Assembly (NCBI GenBank): GCA_024641085.1
Contig: JAHEDT010000001.1
Location: forward strand, 124,001 to 188,000
Direction: 5' to 3'
Origin: Geobacteraceae bacterium
GTDB taxonomy: Bacteria; Desulfobacterota; Desulfuromonadia; Desulfuromonadales; BM103
DNA: 64,000 nt
A program made the position numbers and the translations under genes. The notes under the pieces are model-generated. The model was not told the origin of the DNA, made no database searches, and was given only the letters and a program-made list of their open reading frames with translations. Below, one piece after another: positions 43,107 through 49,589 of this stretch (the first letter of the stretch is position 1; the number at the start of each line of letters is the position of its first letter).

Positions 43107-45209
43107 ATGGCCCGAACCGATCACCACAACCGCCTGCTGGATGCCGTGACTGCTGATTTCGCCGTACTGCGCGGCCGCCCGCAGCCCTTTGGAGTCAGTC
43201 TCCTGGCCGGAGGGGTCAACTTTGCCGTCTTTTCACGCCATGCCACGGCGCTGACCCTGGTGCTGTTTCGGCCGGGGGACCCGGAACCGCTGGTCGAGTT
43301 CCCTTTCGATCCGCAGATCAATCGCACCGGTGATGTCTGGCATATCGCCCTGCAGGGACTGGTCCCCGGGTTCGAGTACGGCTACCGGACGGCCCGGGAG
43401 AGTTCTGATGACTCGCCGGTACATCGATTCGATGCCGGGCAGGTGTTGCTCGATCCCTATGCCAGGGCGCTTTCCGGGCCGTCGCTGTGGCGGGCGGCCA
43501 CCCGCTGCGCGTCCCGCCAGGGCAACTGGCGCAGTCTGCTGGTTGACGACACCTTCGACTGGGGTCATGACCGGCCGCTCAACCATCATCTGGCCGACTC
43601 GGTGATCTATGAGATGCACGTCCGCGGCTTTACCCGAGACGCCTCCTCGGGGGTCAGCCACCCGGGCACTTTTCGCGGCGTGATGGAAAAGATCCCCTAC
43701 CTGAAGGAACTGGGCATCACCGCGGTGGAACTCCTGCCGGTTACCGAGTTCGACGAGGCTGACAATTACCGCAGGAATCCCCTGACCGGGGAGCCCCTGC
43801 ATAACTTCTGGGGCTATCATCCCTTGAGTTTTTTCGCTCCGAAGGCCGCCTACGCGGTGGAGATGACAGCCGGTGCCCAGGTCCGTGAGTTCAAGGAGAT
43901 GGTCAAGGCGTTGCACGCCGCAGGGATAGAAGTCATTCTCGATATGGTTTTCAATCATACCGGTGAAGGCAACCAGCAAGGGCGCTCTCTCTCACTGCGC
44001 GGACTCGACAACAGCGTCTACTATATTGTCGACCCCCAAAGCGGCGCCTACGCCAACTACTCCGGCTGCGGCAACACCGTCAACTGCAATCACCCGGTGG
44101 TGCGCGACCTGATCATCGATGCGCTGTGCTACTGGGTCACCGAGATGCGTGTCGATGGGTTCCGCTTCGACCTGGCCTCGATCCTCGGCCGTGGTTCCGA
44201 CGGCGCAGTGCTCACCAATCCACCGCTTTTGGAGCGGATCGCCGGCAACCCGGTGCTGGCTGACACCAAGCTGATCGCCGAGGCCTGGGACGCCGCCGGC
44301 CTCTACCAGGTCGGCACTTTTCCCAATTTCGGTCGCTGGGCGGAATGGAACGGCAAGTTCCGTGACGACCTCCGCCGCTTCGTGCGCGGCGACCGGGGTA
44401 TGGTGTCGATTCTGGCAACCCGCCTGGCCGGCAGTTCCGACCTCTACCAGGATGACGGAAGAGCCCCTTTCCACAGTATCAATTTCGTCACCAGCCACGA
44501 CGGCTTCACCCTGGCGGACCTGGTCAGTTACGCGCAAAAGCACAATGAGGCCAACGGCGAATACGGCGCCGATGGCGACGATCATAATTTCAGTGCCAAT
44601 CATGGATGCGAAGGGACGACGGACGATCCGGCCATCGGCGCGCTGCGTGCCAGACAGGTGCACAACTTCGCCACCCTGCTGGTTCTCGCCCACGGCGTGC
44701 CGATGCTCCTCGCCGGGGATGAAATGGCTCGCAGCCAGGGTGGCAACAACAACGCCTGGTGCCAGGACAATGCTACCAGCTGGCTCGACTGGACCCGGCT
44801 CGCAGCCAACCGTGAGCTGTTTGATTTCTTTCGCAACCTGATTGCCTTCCGGAAAAGGTACAGTCTGCTGCGGCCGCGTCACTTCGAGGGAGAAGAGAGC
44901 GGCGAGCGTCGCTTGACCTGGCACGGGAGCCAGTTGCATCATCCGGACTGGTCGGAAGACTCCCACGCCCTGGCCATGCACCTGCAGGGTAAACCGGAGG
45001 AGGCTGAGATCTATCTGATCGCCAGCGCGGCTCTGAACGATGCAGATTTTGCCCTGCCAGGTCCGGACCCACAAAGGCCCTGGCGGCGTTTCGTTGACAC
45101 GACGCTTGCTGCCGGGCATGCAAGCTGCCCCCCGGGAGAGGAGGCGCCGTTGCCGGGGCAGACCTGTTACCGGGTGCAGGGACGTTCCGTGGTCGTTCTG
45201 GTGAGATAA
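43107..45209 (+). CDS. glgX: Glycogen debranching enzyme GlgX
   Basis: 700 residues of the GH13_11 family. An N-terminal CBM48 domain (about 15-125) is followed by the catalytic barrel. DGFRFDLAS supplies the nucleophile Asp355, LIAEAWD the acid/base Glu at about 392 and TSHD the third acid Asp465. GNNNAWCQDN is typical of GlgX/isoamylases. The enzyme hydrolyses alpha-1,6 branches of glycogen limit dextrins in the cytoplasm. No other glycogen gene is next to it; the ROK kinase at 8-9 kb may use released glucose. Confidence 0.93.
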   Translation: MARTDHHNRLLDAVTADFAVLRGRPQPFGVSLLAGGVNFAVFSRHATALTLVLFRPGDPEPLVEFPFDPQINRTGDVWHIALQGLVPGFEYGYRTARESSDDSPVHRFDAGQVLLDPYARALSGPSLWRAATRCASRQGNWRSLLVDDTFDWGHDRPLNHHLADSVIYEMHVRGFTRDASSGVSHPGTFRGVMEKIPYLKELGITAVELLPVTEFDEADNYRRNPLTGEPLHNFWGYHPLSFFAPKAAYAVEMTAGAQVREFKEMVKALHAAGIEVILDMVFNHTGEGNQQGRSLSLRGLDNSVYYIVDPQSGAYANYSGCGNTVNCNHPVVRDLIIDALCYWVTEMRVDGFRFDLASILGRGSDGAVLTNPPLLERIAGNPVLADTKLIAEAWDAAGLYQVGTFPNFGRWAEWNGKFRDDLRRFVRGDRGMVSILATRLAGSSDLYQDDGRAPFHSINFVTSHDGFTLADLVSYAQKHNEANGEYGADGDDHNFSANHGCEGTTDDPAIGALRARQVHNFATLLVLAHGVPMLLAGDEMARSQGGNNNAWCQDNATSWLDWTRLAANRELFDFFRNLIAFRKRYSLLRPRHFEGEESGERRLTWHGSQLHHPDWSEDSHALAMHLQGKPEEAEIYLIASAALNDADFALPGPDPQRPWRRFVDTTLAAGHASCPPGEEAPLPGQTCYRVQGRSVVVLVR

Positions 45210-45250: not shown

Positions 45251-46369
45251 CTAGTCGGTCTTGGCCCGCAGCTCCTCGATCAGGGCTGCGCCCTGGGCGA
45301 GGCTGTCGAAGATGATCGCCGAACTGATGGTCGCCGAGGTGACAGCGTCCACCTTGGGGTCGAAGGGGCGCGGCGCGGTGAGGTATTGACCCACCACCCG
45401 ACGGCGCATTGTTGTCACATCCTCATCGTTCCACAATACGTTTCCATACTTGGTCACCTGCAGCGGTTCGAAGCCGACGATCCGCGTCGTCATATCGAAG
45501 ACGTAGATGAAGTGCACGTCGTGGCAGACGTCGCAGACCGTCTGACGGCTGGCGACTTCGGCAAAGAGCCGTACACTCTGCTCCCCCCTGCGCATAACCG
45601 CAGTATAAACGCGCCGACCACTGCGCAGTTTGACCGGTCCGAAGGCAATCAGCTCGCCCCCGGTCTTGAGGAAGGCCTGCCGCACTTTTTCAGCCAGTCG
45701 CCAATCACTGTAGAGGGGCGTGATCGCCGTGCGCTTGCGCACGGCCTCTGCCCCCTGTCGCCGCAGGGAATCCACGTCAGCGCTGGCGAGTTGACGGAGT
45801 TCGCCAAACAGCTTGCTGACATCCGCATTCAACCCCAGGTGGGTTTTGGCCACCACGCCGGATTGGCCGGAGCTGTCCTGGCGGACATAAATGGAGAATG
45901 GTGTGGCACTGCCGCCCAGGGCGCGATGGGAGGCAAAACGTGGATCAGCGACAATCGGAAACGGCACCTGGTACGTCCGGCGAAAAGCCTCGACCTCCTC
46001 GGGCAGGTTGCCCACGGCGATGCCGAGCAGCTTGATGCGACCGCGGGTCGCCGGGGTTTTTTCGATCAGCTTGAACAGCTCGTTGTAAGACGGCACCTGC
46101 TGCTGGCAGTGGACGCAATGCACGTTGAGCAGCTCGACTAGGAGCAGCTCCGCTCTGACCTGGCTGGGTGTGAAGCTGGTGATGCCGAGTCCGAGGTAGC
46201 TGAGGTCGTGGCCCGGCCCGGTGAGGGTCAGTGCCAGTTCCGGAAAGGGATCGCCAAAAGCGATCAGCGGCCGCTCCTCGGCAGCAGCCGGAGCAAGGGT
46301 CAGCAGAGCCAGCAGCGGGACCGCCATCAGGTAACGTAGTTGTTTGATCATTCCAGGGCTCGATTTCAT
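45251..46369 (-). CDS. Exported thioredoxin-like / CxxCH / FMN-binding-type fusion protein
   Basis: 372 residues from the ATG at 46369, which overlaps the stop of the small TM gene (ATGA). A signal peptide ends near residue 30 (LALLTLAPAAA), so the protein is periplasmic. Residues about 35-185 form a TlpA/redoxin-like domain with the pair CVHC at 85-88. Residues 279-283 read CDVCH, a c-type heme attachment motif. Residues 290-370 resemble FMN_bind domains, with VDAVTSATISS (340-350) like the SGATxTS flavinylation motif of NqrC/RnfG. All three parts are seen directly; heme and flavin attachment are inference. A membrane-tethered electron-transfer or thiol-reduction role fits. No cytochrome maturation or flavin transferase gene is adjacent. 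Confidence 0.75.
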   Translation of the reverse strand: MKSSPGMIKQLRYLMAVPLLALLTLAPAAAEERPLIAFGDPFPELALTLTGPGHDLSYLGLGITSFTPSQVRAELLLVELLNVHCVHCQQQVPSYNELFKLIEKTPATRGRIKLLGIAVGNLPEEVEAFRRTYQVPFPIVADPRFASHRALGGSATPFSIYVRQDSSGQSGVVAKTHLGLNADVSKLFGELRQLASADVDSLRRQGAEAVRKRTAITPLYSDWRLAEKVRQAFLKTGGELIAFGPVKLRSGRRVYTAVMRRGEQSVRLFAEVASRQTVCDVCHDVHFIYVFDMTTRIVGFEPLQVTKYGNVLWNDEDVTTMRRRVVGQYLTAPRPFDPKVDAVTSATISSAIIFDSLAQGAALIEELRAKTD

Positions 46370-46503
46370 TCTGCTGCGATCAGAGAGAGAACCACCTGCA
46401 GCACCAGGACAAGCGTCACCAGAACGACAACGCCGCCGATAACGCAAAGCAGGATTATGCCGAGGGTCTTTTTGATTGCCGTCTCACTTGACCCAGTCTT
46501 CAT
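46366..46503 (-). CDS. 45-residue single-TM protein
   Basis: The ATG at 46503 overlaps the end of the selenoprotein gene by 20 bp, and its stop overlaps the next start (ATGA). The product is a short polar N-terminus (MKTGSSETAIKKT) followed by one long hydrophobic helix (residues 14-43). It is too small and simple for family assignment. Tight coupling on both sides suggests it anchors or links the two redox proteins at the membrane; that is inference. Confidence 0.6.
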   Translation of the reverse strand: MKTGSSETAIKKTLGIILLCVIGGVVVLVTLVLVLQVVLSLIAAE

Positions 46504-46822
46504 AAAGCTCTGCGTTGAAGCCGATGATGAAGCGGTCCTTGACCCGGTAGGTCGGTGCGCGCAGGTTTCCGCTCGGCCCCATCGCCTGGGCCAGGATCGC
46601 CTGCTTACCGTCGGCCGCAGTAGTGAAGTCCTGCACCTTCTTCCCCTTGGCAACAGTCACGGTTTTTGCCGTTTTCAGCAGTTCCCAAGAGGCGTCCTCG
46701 TCAAAGCGGGTTTGCTTGGCATCGACGACTTGTTTGGCACTGACCTGTTTGGACTCAAGAAACTCTTGAGCATTTTTACAGGAGGTTCAACCTTTGCGCA
46801 GGTAGGCCCAATCGATTTTCAT
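46484..46822 (-). CDS. ArsC/Spx-like selenoprotein with in-frame UGA
   Basis: 112 residues including a selenocysteine at position 12, encoded by TGA at 46787-46789. Translation through the UGA gives MKIDWAYLRKGU then TSCKNAQEFLES, so the redox motif is UxxC where ArsC/Spx relatives have CxxC. The rest, up to GNLRAPTYRVKDRFIIGFN, is uninterrupted and typical of ArsC-like thioredoxin folds. The ATG has AAAGGAG 6 bp upstream. A SECIS-like hairpin follows the UGA. ArsC-type selenoproteins are known in some deltaproteobacteria, which supports the reading. The substrate is unknown; arsenate reduction should not be assumed. It heads an overlapping three-gene operon. Confidence 0.8.
46754..46770 (-). 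promoter_or_regulatory. Bacterial SECIS-like hairpin after the UGA codon
   Basis: In the transcript CTCAAG, loop AGTTT and CTTGAG form a perfect 6-bp stem within the coding sequence. The loop lies 22-27 nt past the UGA and has a G at its second position. Bacterial SECIS consensus calls for an apical loop about 16-37 nt downstream with a G among its first two bases. Confidence 0.7.
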
Positions 46823-46856: not shown

Positions 46857-46865
46857 AGGATAGCA
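46857..46865 (-). promoter_or_regulatory. Candidate extended -10 promoter of the selenoprotein operon
   Basis: On the minus strand TGCTATCCT at 46857-46865 fits an extended -10. Together with the upstream terminator-like hairpin it suggests an independent transcript beginning near 46850. No clear -35 was found. Confidence 0.35.
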
Positions 46866-46880: not shown

Positions 46881-46898
46881 AAAAGGGCCCGGCCCTTT
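46881..46898 (-). terminator. Terminator-like hairpin at the end of the 46897-47400 gene
   Basis: On the minus strand AAAGGGCC (46891-46898) and GGCCCTTT (46882-46889) form a hairpin followed by T and CC. It begins within the stop codon of the upstream gene and probably separates it from the selenoprotein operon. Confidence 0.5.
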
Positions 46899-47400
46899 AT
46901 TGGCCATATCTACTGACGTTCATGGGTACGCGCAGAACCTCCTGACCTGAATCATAGCAGATGCAGACTCTCTCGCCGGAGTCTTTCGGTGGTATGCCAC
47001 TTGCCGGATAACCCTTTGCGAGGCAGAGGTCACGGCAGATGAGAGAGTCCGTGCGCGGTCCGAGATTGCCGACACTCCACTGGTGTAGGACCAGGAGCAG
47101 CAAAGGGGCAATTGTCAGAGCTGCAGAAGCCACGACATGCTGCCGGTTCAGCCCCGGAGAGGCTTCAAGGCGCTTCCCCGTAAGATAGCCGAGGACGACC
47201 GTCGCCGTCCACAATGCGAGGAACATCCCGGCCGCCAGGCTGGCCAGAAGCTGTTCGCTTGCGGCGGGCCAAGGGTTGTCGCCAAACAGGTACAGCCACA
47301 GGACGCCACTGACTGCCCCGAAGACCAGCAGGGTCATGATCAGGGCAAGGAACAGTCCCGGGATACCGAACAGCAAGGCGTAGACATGTCTTTTCTGCAT
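46897..47400 (-). CDS. Membrane protein with cysteine-rich C-terminal tail
   Basis: 167 residues from the ATG at 47400 (QKRHVYALLFGIPGLFLAL). The frame is open to an ATG at 47475, but neither start has a ribosome binding site and the shorter form begins at the first TM segment. Three hydrophobic segments (about 8-40, 55-80, 93-110) precede a polar tail with cysteines in CRDLC and CIC. No family is recognised. The tail could bind metal or form disulfides on the outer side. The gene is adjacent to the selenoprotein operon but appears separately terminated. Confidence 0.6.
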   Translation of the reverse strand: MQKRHVYALLFGIPGLFLALIMTLLVFGAVSGVLWLYLFGDNPWPAASEQLLASLAAGMFLALWTATVVLGYLTGKRLEASPGLNRQHVVASAALTIAPLLLLVLHQWSVGNLGPRTDSLICRDLCLAKGYPASGIPPKDSGERVCICYDSGQEVLRVPMNVSRYGQ

Positions 47401-47697
47401 AACAACAATACCGTGGTTGAATCTTCCGGTGGCGACCGGTTTGCCGAGGCCCATCCGAACGAGCGAATCATACATGATTTAAACTGTTTACACGATTGCC
47501 GTCTTGGGCCATGATGGTGTTGTATGCAGAGGGTTTCACCCTCTCGATGACGGTAACGTGATATTTTTGACCGTGCTCATTTCAGCCTGCGCGGCAGACA
47601 AAGACCCACACTCGAGCCGAAGCACAAGTCATCCGCTTATGCCGCAAGTGCACGCATAAGTTTACAAGAATTCAATCCAACCCACTATCCAGAATAC

Positions 47698-48648
47698 ATG
47701 ATGCTAGCCGATTTATCTTTTGCCATTCACATCACCGCGCCGATCTTCTGTATCCTGGGGTTGGGGATTTTCTTCAAGCGGCGAGGTTTGATCACCGATG
47801 ATTTTGCCAGGATCGGTTCCGAACTCGTCTTCAAGGTGACTCTCCCATGCCTGCTGTTCGTCAAGCTGGTCGTGACCGATTTCAGGCATTTTCTACCGAC
47901 GCAACTGGTCTTTTATGCTGTCGTCTCAACTTTGGCCGTGTATTTTCTTCTGGAAAGATTTGCCAGCCCGCGCATTGCCGATCACAGGGACCGGGGCGTG
48001 TTTGTCCAGGGCGTCTTCCGGGGGAATCTGGGCATTATCGGCTTGGCTTACTGCCTGAGTGCTTTCGGGGAGCAGGTCGTGCCGATTGCCTCGATTTACC
48101 TGGCTTTCGTGACGACCCTCTACAATGTGCTGGCAGTGATTACCCTGACCCGACACCAGGAACAGTCCACAAATGGGAAAAGGACTCAGTTCATCATCAA
48201 CGGAATCGTCAAAAATCCCCTGATTCTGGCAATCGCCGCCGGTGTCGGTCTGTCGTTGAGCGGAATAGCCGTTCCCCGGATCATCCTCAACACCGGGAGC
48301 TATTTCGCCCAGATGACCCTGCCGTTGGCCCTGCTCTGTGCCGGGGCTTCGATCCGCCTCAGGGAATTCCAGACCTCGCCGCCACTCTATTGGGCCATGG
48401 CGTGCAAACTGTTCCTGGTGCCGCTGCTGGTCACAGCGGGAGGGGTCGCCATCGGCCTGCGCGGTGAAAGCCTGGGAGTCCTGTTCCTGATGTTTTCCGC
48501 ACCTGCAGCAGCTGTCAGCTATCCCATGGCCCAGGCGTTTGGCGCCAACCATCACCTGGCGGCGGCAATCATTGCCGCAACCTCCCTGGGATCGATCGTG
48601 TCCTCGACGCTGGGGATCTTCCTGCTCCGGGTGTTCTCCCTTATCTAG
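47698..48648 (+). CDS. AEC family transporter (auxin efflux carrier type)
   Basis: 316 residues with about ten TM segments, beginning HITAPIFCILGLGIFFKRRG. The two-half AEC plan is seen, with FRGNLGIIGLAYCLS in the first half and SAPAAAVSYPMAQAFG in the second. Bacterial AEC carriers export or exchange organic acids such as malate, as in MdcF and MleP. Substrate is unknown. The ATG at 47698 or the one at 47701 could be the start. A second, divergent AEC gene follows 35 bp later. Confidence 0.87.
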   Translation: MMLADLSFAIHITAPIFCILGLGIFFKRRGLITDDFARIGSELVFKVTLPCLLFVKLVVTDFRHFLPTQLVFYAVVSTLAVYFLLERFASPRIADHRDRGVFVQGVFRGNLGIIGLAYCLSAFGEQVVPIASIYLAFVTTLYNVLAVITLTRHQEQSTNGKRTQFIINGIVKNPLILAIAAGVGLSLSGIAVPRIILNTGSYFAQMTLPLALLCAGASIRLREFQTSPPLYWAMACKLFLVPLLVTAGGVAIGLRGESLGVLFLMFSAPAAAVSYPMAQAFGANHHLAAAIIAATSLGSIVSSTLGIFLLRVFSLI

Positions 48649-48683: not shown

Positions 48684-49589
48684 ATGACAGAACTGTTCAG
48701 CGTCTTTATCAATGTGATCATGCCGGTCTTCGGCATCGTTCTGCTCGGCTACCTGCTGGGAGGTCGTCTGGCCCTGGAGGCCAGAACCCTGACCCGTTTG
48801 GCCTATTACGTGTTCGCACCGGCGTTCATTTTCAGGGCCATCGGCAGCTCTGCCATACCCTTGACGAGCGCTGCCAAGATGCTCTGCTTCATCGTGGCGA
48901 CCCACCTGCTGGCCGCCCTGGCTGCAGGCGGGATCGCCAGGTTGATGGGGCGGTCACGGGAGATGATTGCCGCCTTCGTGATGATCGCCGTGTTCGGCAA
49001 CGTCGGCAATTACGGGTTGGCAATGATCCGTTTCCGGCTTGGTGATGAGGCTGTCGCGCCGGCAACCATCTATTTTGTGGCGATCAGCATCACAGCCTTC
49101 GCGGTCTCTGTGGGTGCCGCCGGCTGGGCCCATGGCGGCAGCCGCGGCGCATTGGGCCGCATGCTGAAAACGCCTGCCCTGTGGGCAGCGGTTCCCGGAC
49201 TGATTGCTTCCCACGGCGGCCTGGAGCCGCCGCTGCTGTTGTCGCGCCTGATTGGCCTGCTGGCCGACGCAATGATCCCGGTCATGCTGTTCGCCCTGGG
49301 TCTGCAGATGCTCGAACAGAAGCGGATTTGCCTGACCACCGATGTCGTGGTCGCCTCGTCTGTCCGCTTGCTGCTGGCCCCGGTCCTGGCGTGCCTGGTG
49401 GCAATCCCTTTTGGCCTGTCTCAGATTGACTACGCTGCCGGCGTTCTGCAGGCGAGTATGCCCACGGCCATCTTTGTAGCCATCATTTCCAGGGAAAATA
49501 ATATTGTTCCGGAGTTCGCCACCTCCGTGGTGCTTTTCTCGACCCTTGCCAGCCTGGTGACCTTGACCTTGATCATGGTCATCCTGTAA
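48684..49589 (+). CDS. AEC family transporter (second copy)
   Basis: 301 residues with about ten TM segments. Key stretches are INVIMPVFGIVLLGYLLG at the start, AVFGNVGNYGLAMIRF and GVLQASMPTAIFVAII. It is only distantly similar to the preceding AEC protein, so the pair is not a recent duplication. Both genes are on one strand, 35 bp apart, and may be cotranscribed. The hairpin at 49619-49639 lacks a T-run but could end the transcript. Confidence 0.87.
   Translation: MTELFSVFINVIMPVFGIVLLGYLLGGRLALEARTLTRLAYYVFAPAFIFRAIGSSAIPLTSAAKMLCFIVATHLLAALAAGGIARLMGRSREMIAAFVMIAVFGNVGNYGLAMIRFRLGDEAVAPATIYFVAISITAFAVSVGAAGWAHGGSRGALGRMLKTPALWAAVPGLIASHGGLEPPLLLSRLIGLLADAMIPVMLFALGLQMLEQKRICLTTDVVVASSVRLLLAPVLACLVAIPFGLSQIDYAAGVLQASMPTAIFVAIISRENNIVPEFATSVVLFSTLASLVTLTLIMVIL

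Follow-up and report, generated by a model that had tools for sequence, protein, structure and literature searches.

Three overlapping reading frames with the appearance of a redox operon raise the question of whether a selenoprotein, a tiny membrane protein and a secreted thioredoxin-like protein act together across the membrane, or whether genes of separate origin were brought together here recently. All three frames are located on the minus strand of the window, i.e. the whole 64,000-nt stretch of Geobacteraceae DNA analysed in this work, and the coordinates given for them in an initial annotation hold. The selenoprotein gene (46484..46822) overlaps by 20 bp with a membrane protein frame of 45 codons, which opens at ATG 46503 and ends at the stop codon 46368-46366. 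This stop codon in turn shares 4 bp (ATGA) with the first ATG of the third gene (45251..46369; 372 aa from ATG 46369), confirming the proposed arrangement of three overlapping genes. The start of the third gene is uncertain, because a second in-frame ATG at 46351, six codons downstream, also precedes the signal peptide. A gene of the glgX/isoamylase type, assigned by Pfam (43107..45209, plus strand), is convergent with the trio. Upstream of the selenoprotein gene lies a gene (46897-47475, minus strand) for a membrane protein of 192 aa that contains several hydrophobic segments. This gene is kept at this place in the same-genus relative (G001); an sbcC-like gene is found there in genome G012. 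On the plus strand follows a tandem pair of adjoining AEC-type Mem_trans transporter genes (47698-48648 and 48684-49589).

The unit had also been credited with its own extended -10 promoter and an upstream terminator. The sequence TGCTATCCT is indeed present (46857..46865, minus strand), and the same-genus relative carries TGTTATGAT at the matching position; being a consensus match only, it is a candidate promoter from which the trio may be co-transcribed. The terminator did not stand up to analysis: the hairpin at this place shares bases with the stop codon before it, lacks a proper U-run, does not exceed shuffled sequences in stability (z -0.57) and was not picked up by a terminator scan. 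A search against Rfam gave no match.

The first gene is predicted to encode a genuine selenoprotein, in agreement with the initial annotation. Its product of 112 aa, terminated by TGA, scores 124.8 bits against the NCBIfam model NF041106 (ArsC_rel_Se_1), whose curated cut-off is 85. The selenocysteine (Sec) codon UGA is codon 12 (46789-46787, minus strand) within the motif GUTSC, and UGA is found at the same site in homologues from 80 named loci. A Sec-insertion hairpin of the bacterial type, with a 7-bp stem and a GUU loop (46754..46770, minus strand), begins at a distance of 19 nt, counted from the U of the UGA. Folding z-scores range from -2.8 to -3.3 in three genomes, and in 20 sequences the pairs are kept in 95.7% of cells as compared to 28.6-56.4% for slid versions of the hairpin, with two compensatory pairs. 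The genome also encodes SelB and a tRNA-Sec candidate scoring 47.9 bits, just above the gathering score of 47. An AlphaFold2 model (pLDDT 94.5) resembles Spx and ArsC-like structures in a structure search. The protein, which carries a UxxC motif in an ArsC/Spx-related thioredoxin fold, is predicted to be cytosolic, is ArsC/Spx/glutaredoxin-like in fold and is probably a thiol-disulfide or selenol reductase. The family is already catalogued: an 'Arsenate reductase-like protein' (COG1393, UxxC) is listed in PMC9312934, and the 'distant ArsC homolog' listed for Desulfuromonas acetoxidans in PMC1794560 probably belongs to the same family. Three copies of the gene (loci L026, L033 and L034) occur in one assembly with 7% contamination (G020), possibly representing several strains, and a permease-like gene lies close by in convergent orientation.

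The third protein had been described as a fusion of thioredoxin, heme and FMN parts. A profile of 13 homologues matches ResA structures (E 2.9e-9), consistent with a secreted ResA-like thioredoxin. Invariant in all 13 are both cysteines of the CxxC motif (CVHC; C85 and C88), a CxxCH motif (CDxCH; CDVCHDVHF here), which is a possible haem c site, and residues D341, A342, V343, A346 and T347 of the motif DAVTSAT. The FMN_bind domain (PF04205) reaches 13 bits, below the Pfam gathering score of 22, and hhalign with true FMN_bind domains yields an E-value of 3.6e-4 at a probability of 37% with the flavinylation motif aligned; the C-terminus may therefore work like FMN_bind, its membership in that family not being established. 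ApbE is encoded on the same contig (304 bits). A structure model of the third protein, built from two sequences only, has a pLDDT of 38, which is too poor for a fold comparison. Thus, this protein can fairly be read as 'thioredoxin / possible haem / FMN-like', haem and flavin being putative cofactors that would be attached to it: the secreted thioredoxin fold and the three motifs were recovered, and the FMN_bind assignment stayed below the Pfam cut-off. In two genomes (L018 in G056 and L019 in G045), paralogues of the third gene are located between genes that by eye resemble those of an NrfD-type membrane subunit and a TorD-type chaperone, a setting that suggests a link to a respiratory oxidoreductase.

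According to the initial annotation, the three proteins could constitute one cross-membrane thiol/electron pathway. The tight packing of the genes, a promoter candidate shared by two species and the redox chemistry of the first and third proteins speak for this idea. However, among 58 related genomes, 11 possess the third gene and 12 the selenoprotein gene, and the two occur together in only two, both of the window's genus, as compared to 2.28 expected by chance. The full gene order, for which conservation in Desulfuromonadia had been envisaged, is limited to G000 and G001, two genomes of one genus. Genome G012 has the selenoprotein gene and the membrane protein gene without the third gene, and in nine other genomes the third gene lacks its partners, this gene being usually found alone. 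Likewise, at the 80 named selenoprotein loci the third gene is nearby only at a same-genus locus (JAHEEU, Geobacteraceae Ww292), and the selenoprotein gene has no constant partner there: even the most frequent neighbours are found at about six loci at most, the larger clusters in this survey being antisense frames of the selenoprotein gene itself. Finally, the conserved segment of the membrane protein contains no invariant cysteine, which makes it improbable that this protein transfers thiol electrons itself. With partners lacking in nearly all relatives, we regard a common pathway as very unlikely.

The small membrane protein has a different distribution. It is present in six of 277 genomes of the class; no homologue with E < 1e-3 was found outside these six, and one further match (E 0.007) looks like chance. 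As judged by tblastn, glgX lies beside it in all six cases. In G005, G019 and G021 the membrane protein gene stands alone beside glgX. In the present genome, in G001 and in G012 (JACZKE, Desulfuromonadales MAG37) it follows the selenoprotein gene and is still convergent with glgX, and in the window's genus the third gene is located between the two. Within the family, five of the six genomes with the membrane protein also have the selenoprotein (P=0.02), an association that is weak and confounded by kinship, and that would still allow the two to be functionally linked.

The stand-alone gene, also convergent with glgX, encodes 35 residues and has an ATG start, a GAAAGGG Shine-Dalgarno site and a TTGACA/TAATTT-like promoter. 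In all three genomes with the selenoprotein gene upstream, ATC takes the place of this ATG (gctATGAAA---ACT vs gctATCAAAAAGACT; an alternative alignment puts the ATG opposite the next codon). The original Shine-Dalgarno site is lost as well, and a convincing site ahead of the ATC is not found in all three genomes. The conserved part of the single-pass membrane protein frame (46366..46476, minus strand) begins with this ATC codon (46476-46474) and comprises 36 codons and the stop. The upstream ATG and eight further codons of the 45-residue frame (46477..46503, minus strand) are open in the window's genome only: in G001 and G012 the fifth codon of the frame is a TGA (MKTG*), since the selenoprotein codon that overlaps it reads GTG or TTG in these genomes and not GTC. 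Decoding of this TGA as Sec was considered and rejected, since the sequence behind it forms no hairpin of the Sec type (z 0.3 and -1.2) and the present genome has TCA (Ser) instead. A GTG or TTG start inside the helix was likewise dismissed; it would lose the conserved residues KKT and is not common to the genomes.

Nevertheless, the membrane protein frame appears to be read. At the junction with the selenoprotein gene, known from three sequences only, two of which are known metagenome assemblies, the frame shows 14 amino-acid changes as compared to 22.3 +/- 2.3 under neutrality (P=0.0002), a dN/dS of about 0.2 and third-position bias. The stop position is the same in all three genomes, and the residues KKT just after the ATC are unchanged, indicating that translation probably begins at the ATC or before. 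Constraint and unchanged residues together imply that the frame is translated either from the ATC or from upstream through the selenoprotein stop. These data support a real coding frame under purifying selection. The proposed 45-aa protein is thus upheld in its transmembrane part; its ATG-started frame breaks off at codon 5 in both relatives, that is, next to the conserved neighbours the start of the frame is not conserved and the membrane segment is.

Our favoured explanation, to which we assign a probability of roughly 0.55, is that the trio represents a young, genus-level operon beside glgX, composed of three genes of separate origin, in which translation of the 36-aa membrane protein restarts at AUC. 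The membrane protein gene would ancestrally have been independent and equipped with a promoter-like site, a Shine-Dalgarno site and an ATG, all of which would have been lost when the selenoprotein gene arrived directly upstream. Most likely, ribosomes would end the selenoprotein and restart at the AUC a few bases beyond its stop codon. The third gene would have been inserted later, in the window's genus, between the membrane protein gene and glgX. This order of events is deduced from the six arrangements and not from a tree. A restart at AUC is favoured because its 36-aa product almost equals the 35-residue stand-alone form and because it requires the fewest assumptions; a dedicated pathway joining the three proteins, whose enzymatic roles are predicted, is not needed. 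Against it count the very poor performance of AUC as a start codon in E. coli and the upstream ATG frame (46503), which is open in the window's own genome and could be used.

Translation from ATG 46503 to give 45 aa in the window's species, where a GTC in place of a GTG selenoprotein codon keeps the frame open, is one alternative. We consider it doubtful, as TGA closes the frame in both relatives, anti-Shine-Dalgarno pairing upstream of the ATG is weak (-2.1 kcal/mol), and the extra N-terminus, absent from the stand-alone homologues, is dictated by the selenoprotein codons. Alternatively, ribosomes shifting by +1 at the stop codon of the selenoprotein gene could join the membrane segment to a minor fraction of the selenoprotein, which would thereby be anchored in the membrane, its Sec domain facing the cytosol. 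In each of the three genomes the membrane protein frame lies at exactly +1 and, as its constraint shows, is translated; owing to the in-frame TGA, ribosomes could enter it only at the stop codon of the selenoprotein gene or past it; no ATG, GTG or TTG is available between this TGA and the helix in G001; and basic residues ahead of the helix fit an N-in topology. If true, one message would yield a soluble and a membrane-bound selenoprotein, and UGA codon 12 and the terminal stop of the same short gene would both be recoded. However, the ATC occupies a position homologous to that of the former start codon, and a restart accounts for it without frameshifting. Moreover, the stop context is AAG-UGA-G in two genomes and AAA-UAA-G in the third, with no prfB-like stimulatory context common to them, and a Lys-tRNA that has slipped by +1 on AAG pairs poorly in its new register. 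No in-frame fusion was found among the 80 loci, nor does any homologue from the other 78 named loci have a homologous membrane tail, in-frame or shifted. Frameshifting is therefore unlikely in our view. Finally, the frame could be a decaying remnant that is untranslated in the selenoprotein-linked genomes, as its missing ATG and missing original Shine-Dalgarno site would suggest; given that third-position bias, a common stop position and significant departure from neutrality persist after the shared loss of the ATG, we deem this quite improbable.

Thus, rather than an established pathway, the trio is best described as a recent assembly, at the genus level, of genes of known kinds. With its six genomes the locus seems to show an operon in the process of forming, from glgX and the membrane protein gene alone, through addition of the selenoprotein gene upstream, to acquisition of the redox gene. 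Survival of the membrane protein gene without a start codon provides a natural test of how small overlapping genes are translated, be it by non-AUG starts or by recoding, and the locus is a warning against inferring functional pathways from gene overlap alone.

Compared with known systems, the selenoprotein agrees with the ArsC family (seleno)proteins of NF041106 in family model, UxxC site, Sec insertion and host group, and nothing in the protein itself sets it apart; only its genomic neighbours at the present locus are unusual. The survey of flavinylated proteins in PMC8238504 describes, in the parts consulted, hybrid thioredoxin/flavin systems made of separate proteins. The third protein resembles the ApbE-flavinylated FMN_bind proteins treated there in its flavinylation-type motif, in the presence of ApbE in the genome and in the idea of a thioredoxin partner, but would unite thioredoxin and FMN_bind-like parts with a CxxCH motif in one chain, a fusion not found described in those parts of PMC8238504. 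With the periplasmic thioredoxins ResA and TlpA it shares a signal-peptide-like N-terminus, the thioredoxin fold detected by profile and the CxxC motif, and it differs from them in about 200 extra C-terminal residues that contain the invariant CxxCH and the FMN_bind-like DAVTSAT. The membrane protein gene, in turn, is reminiscent of known cases in which coupled translation employs a rare start codon, the AUU starts of infC and pcnB in E. coli being examples, in that a non-AUG start would be used close to an upstream stop. Unlike in such cases, however, its putative AUC would have arisen by loss of an ATG that is still used in relatives.
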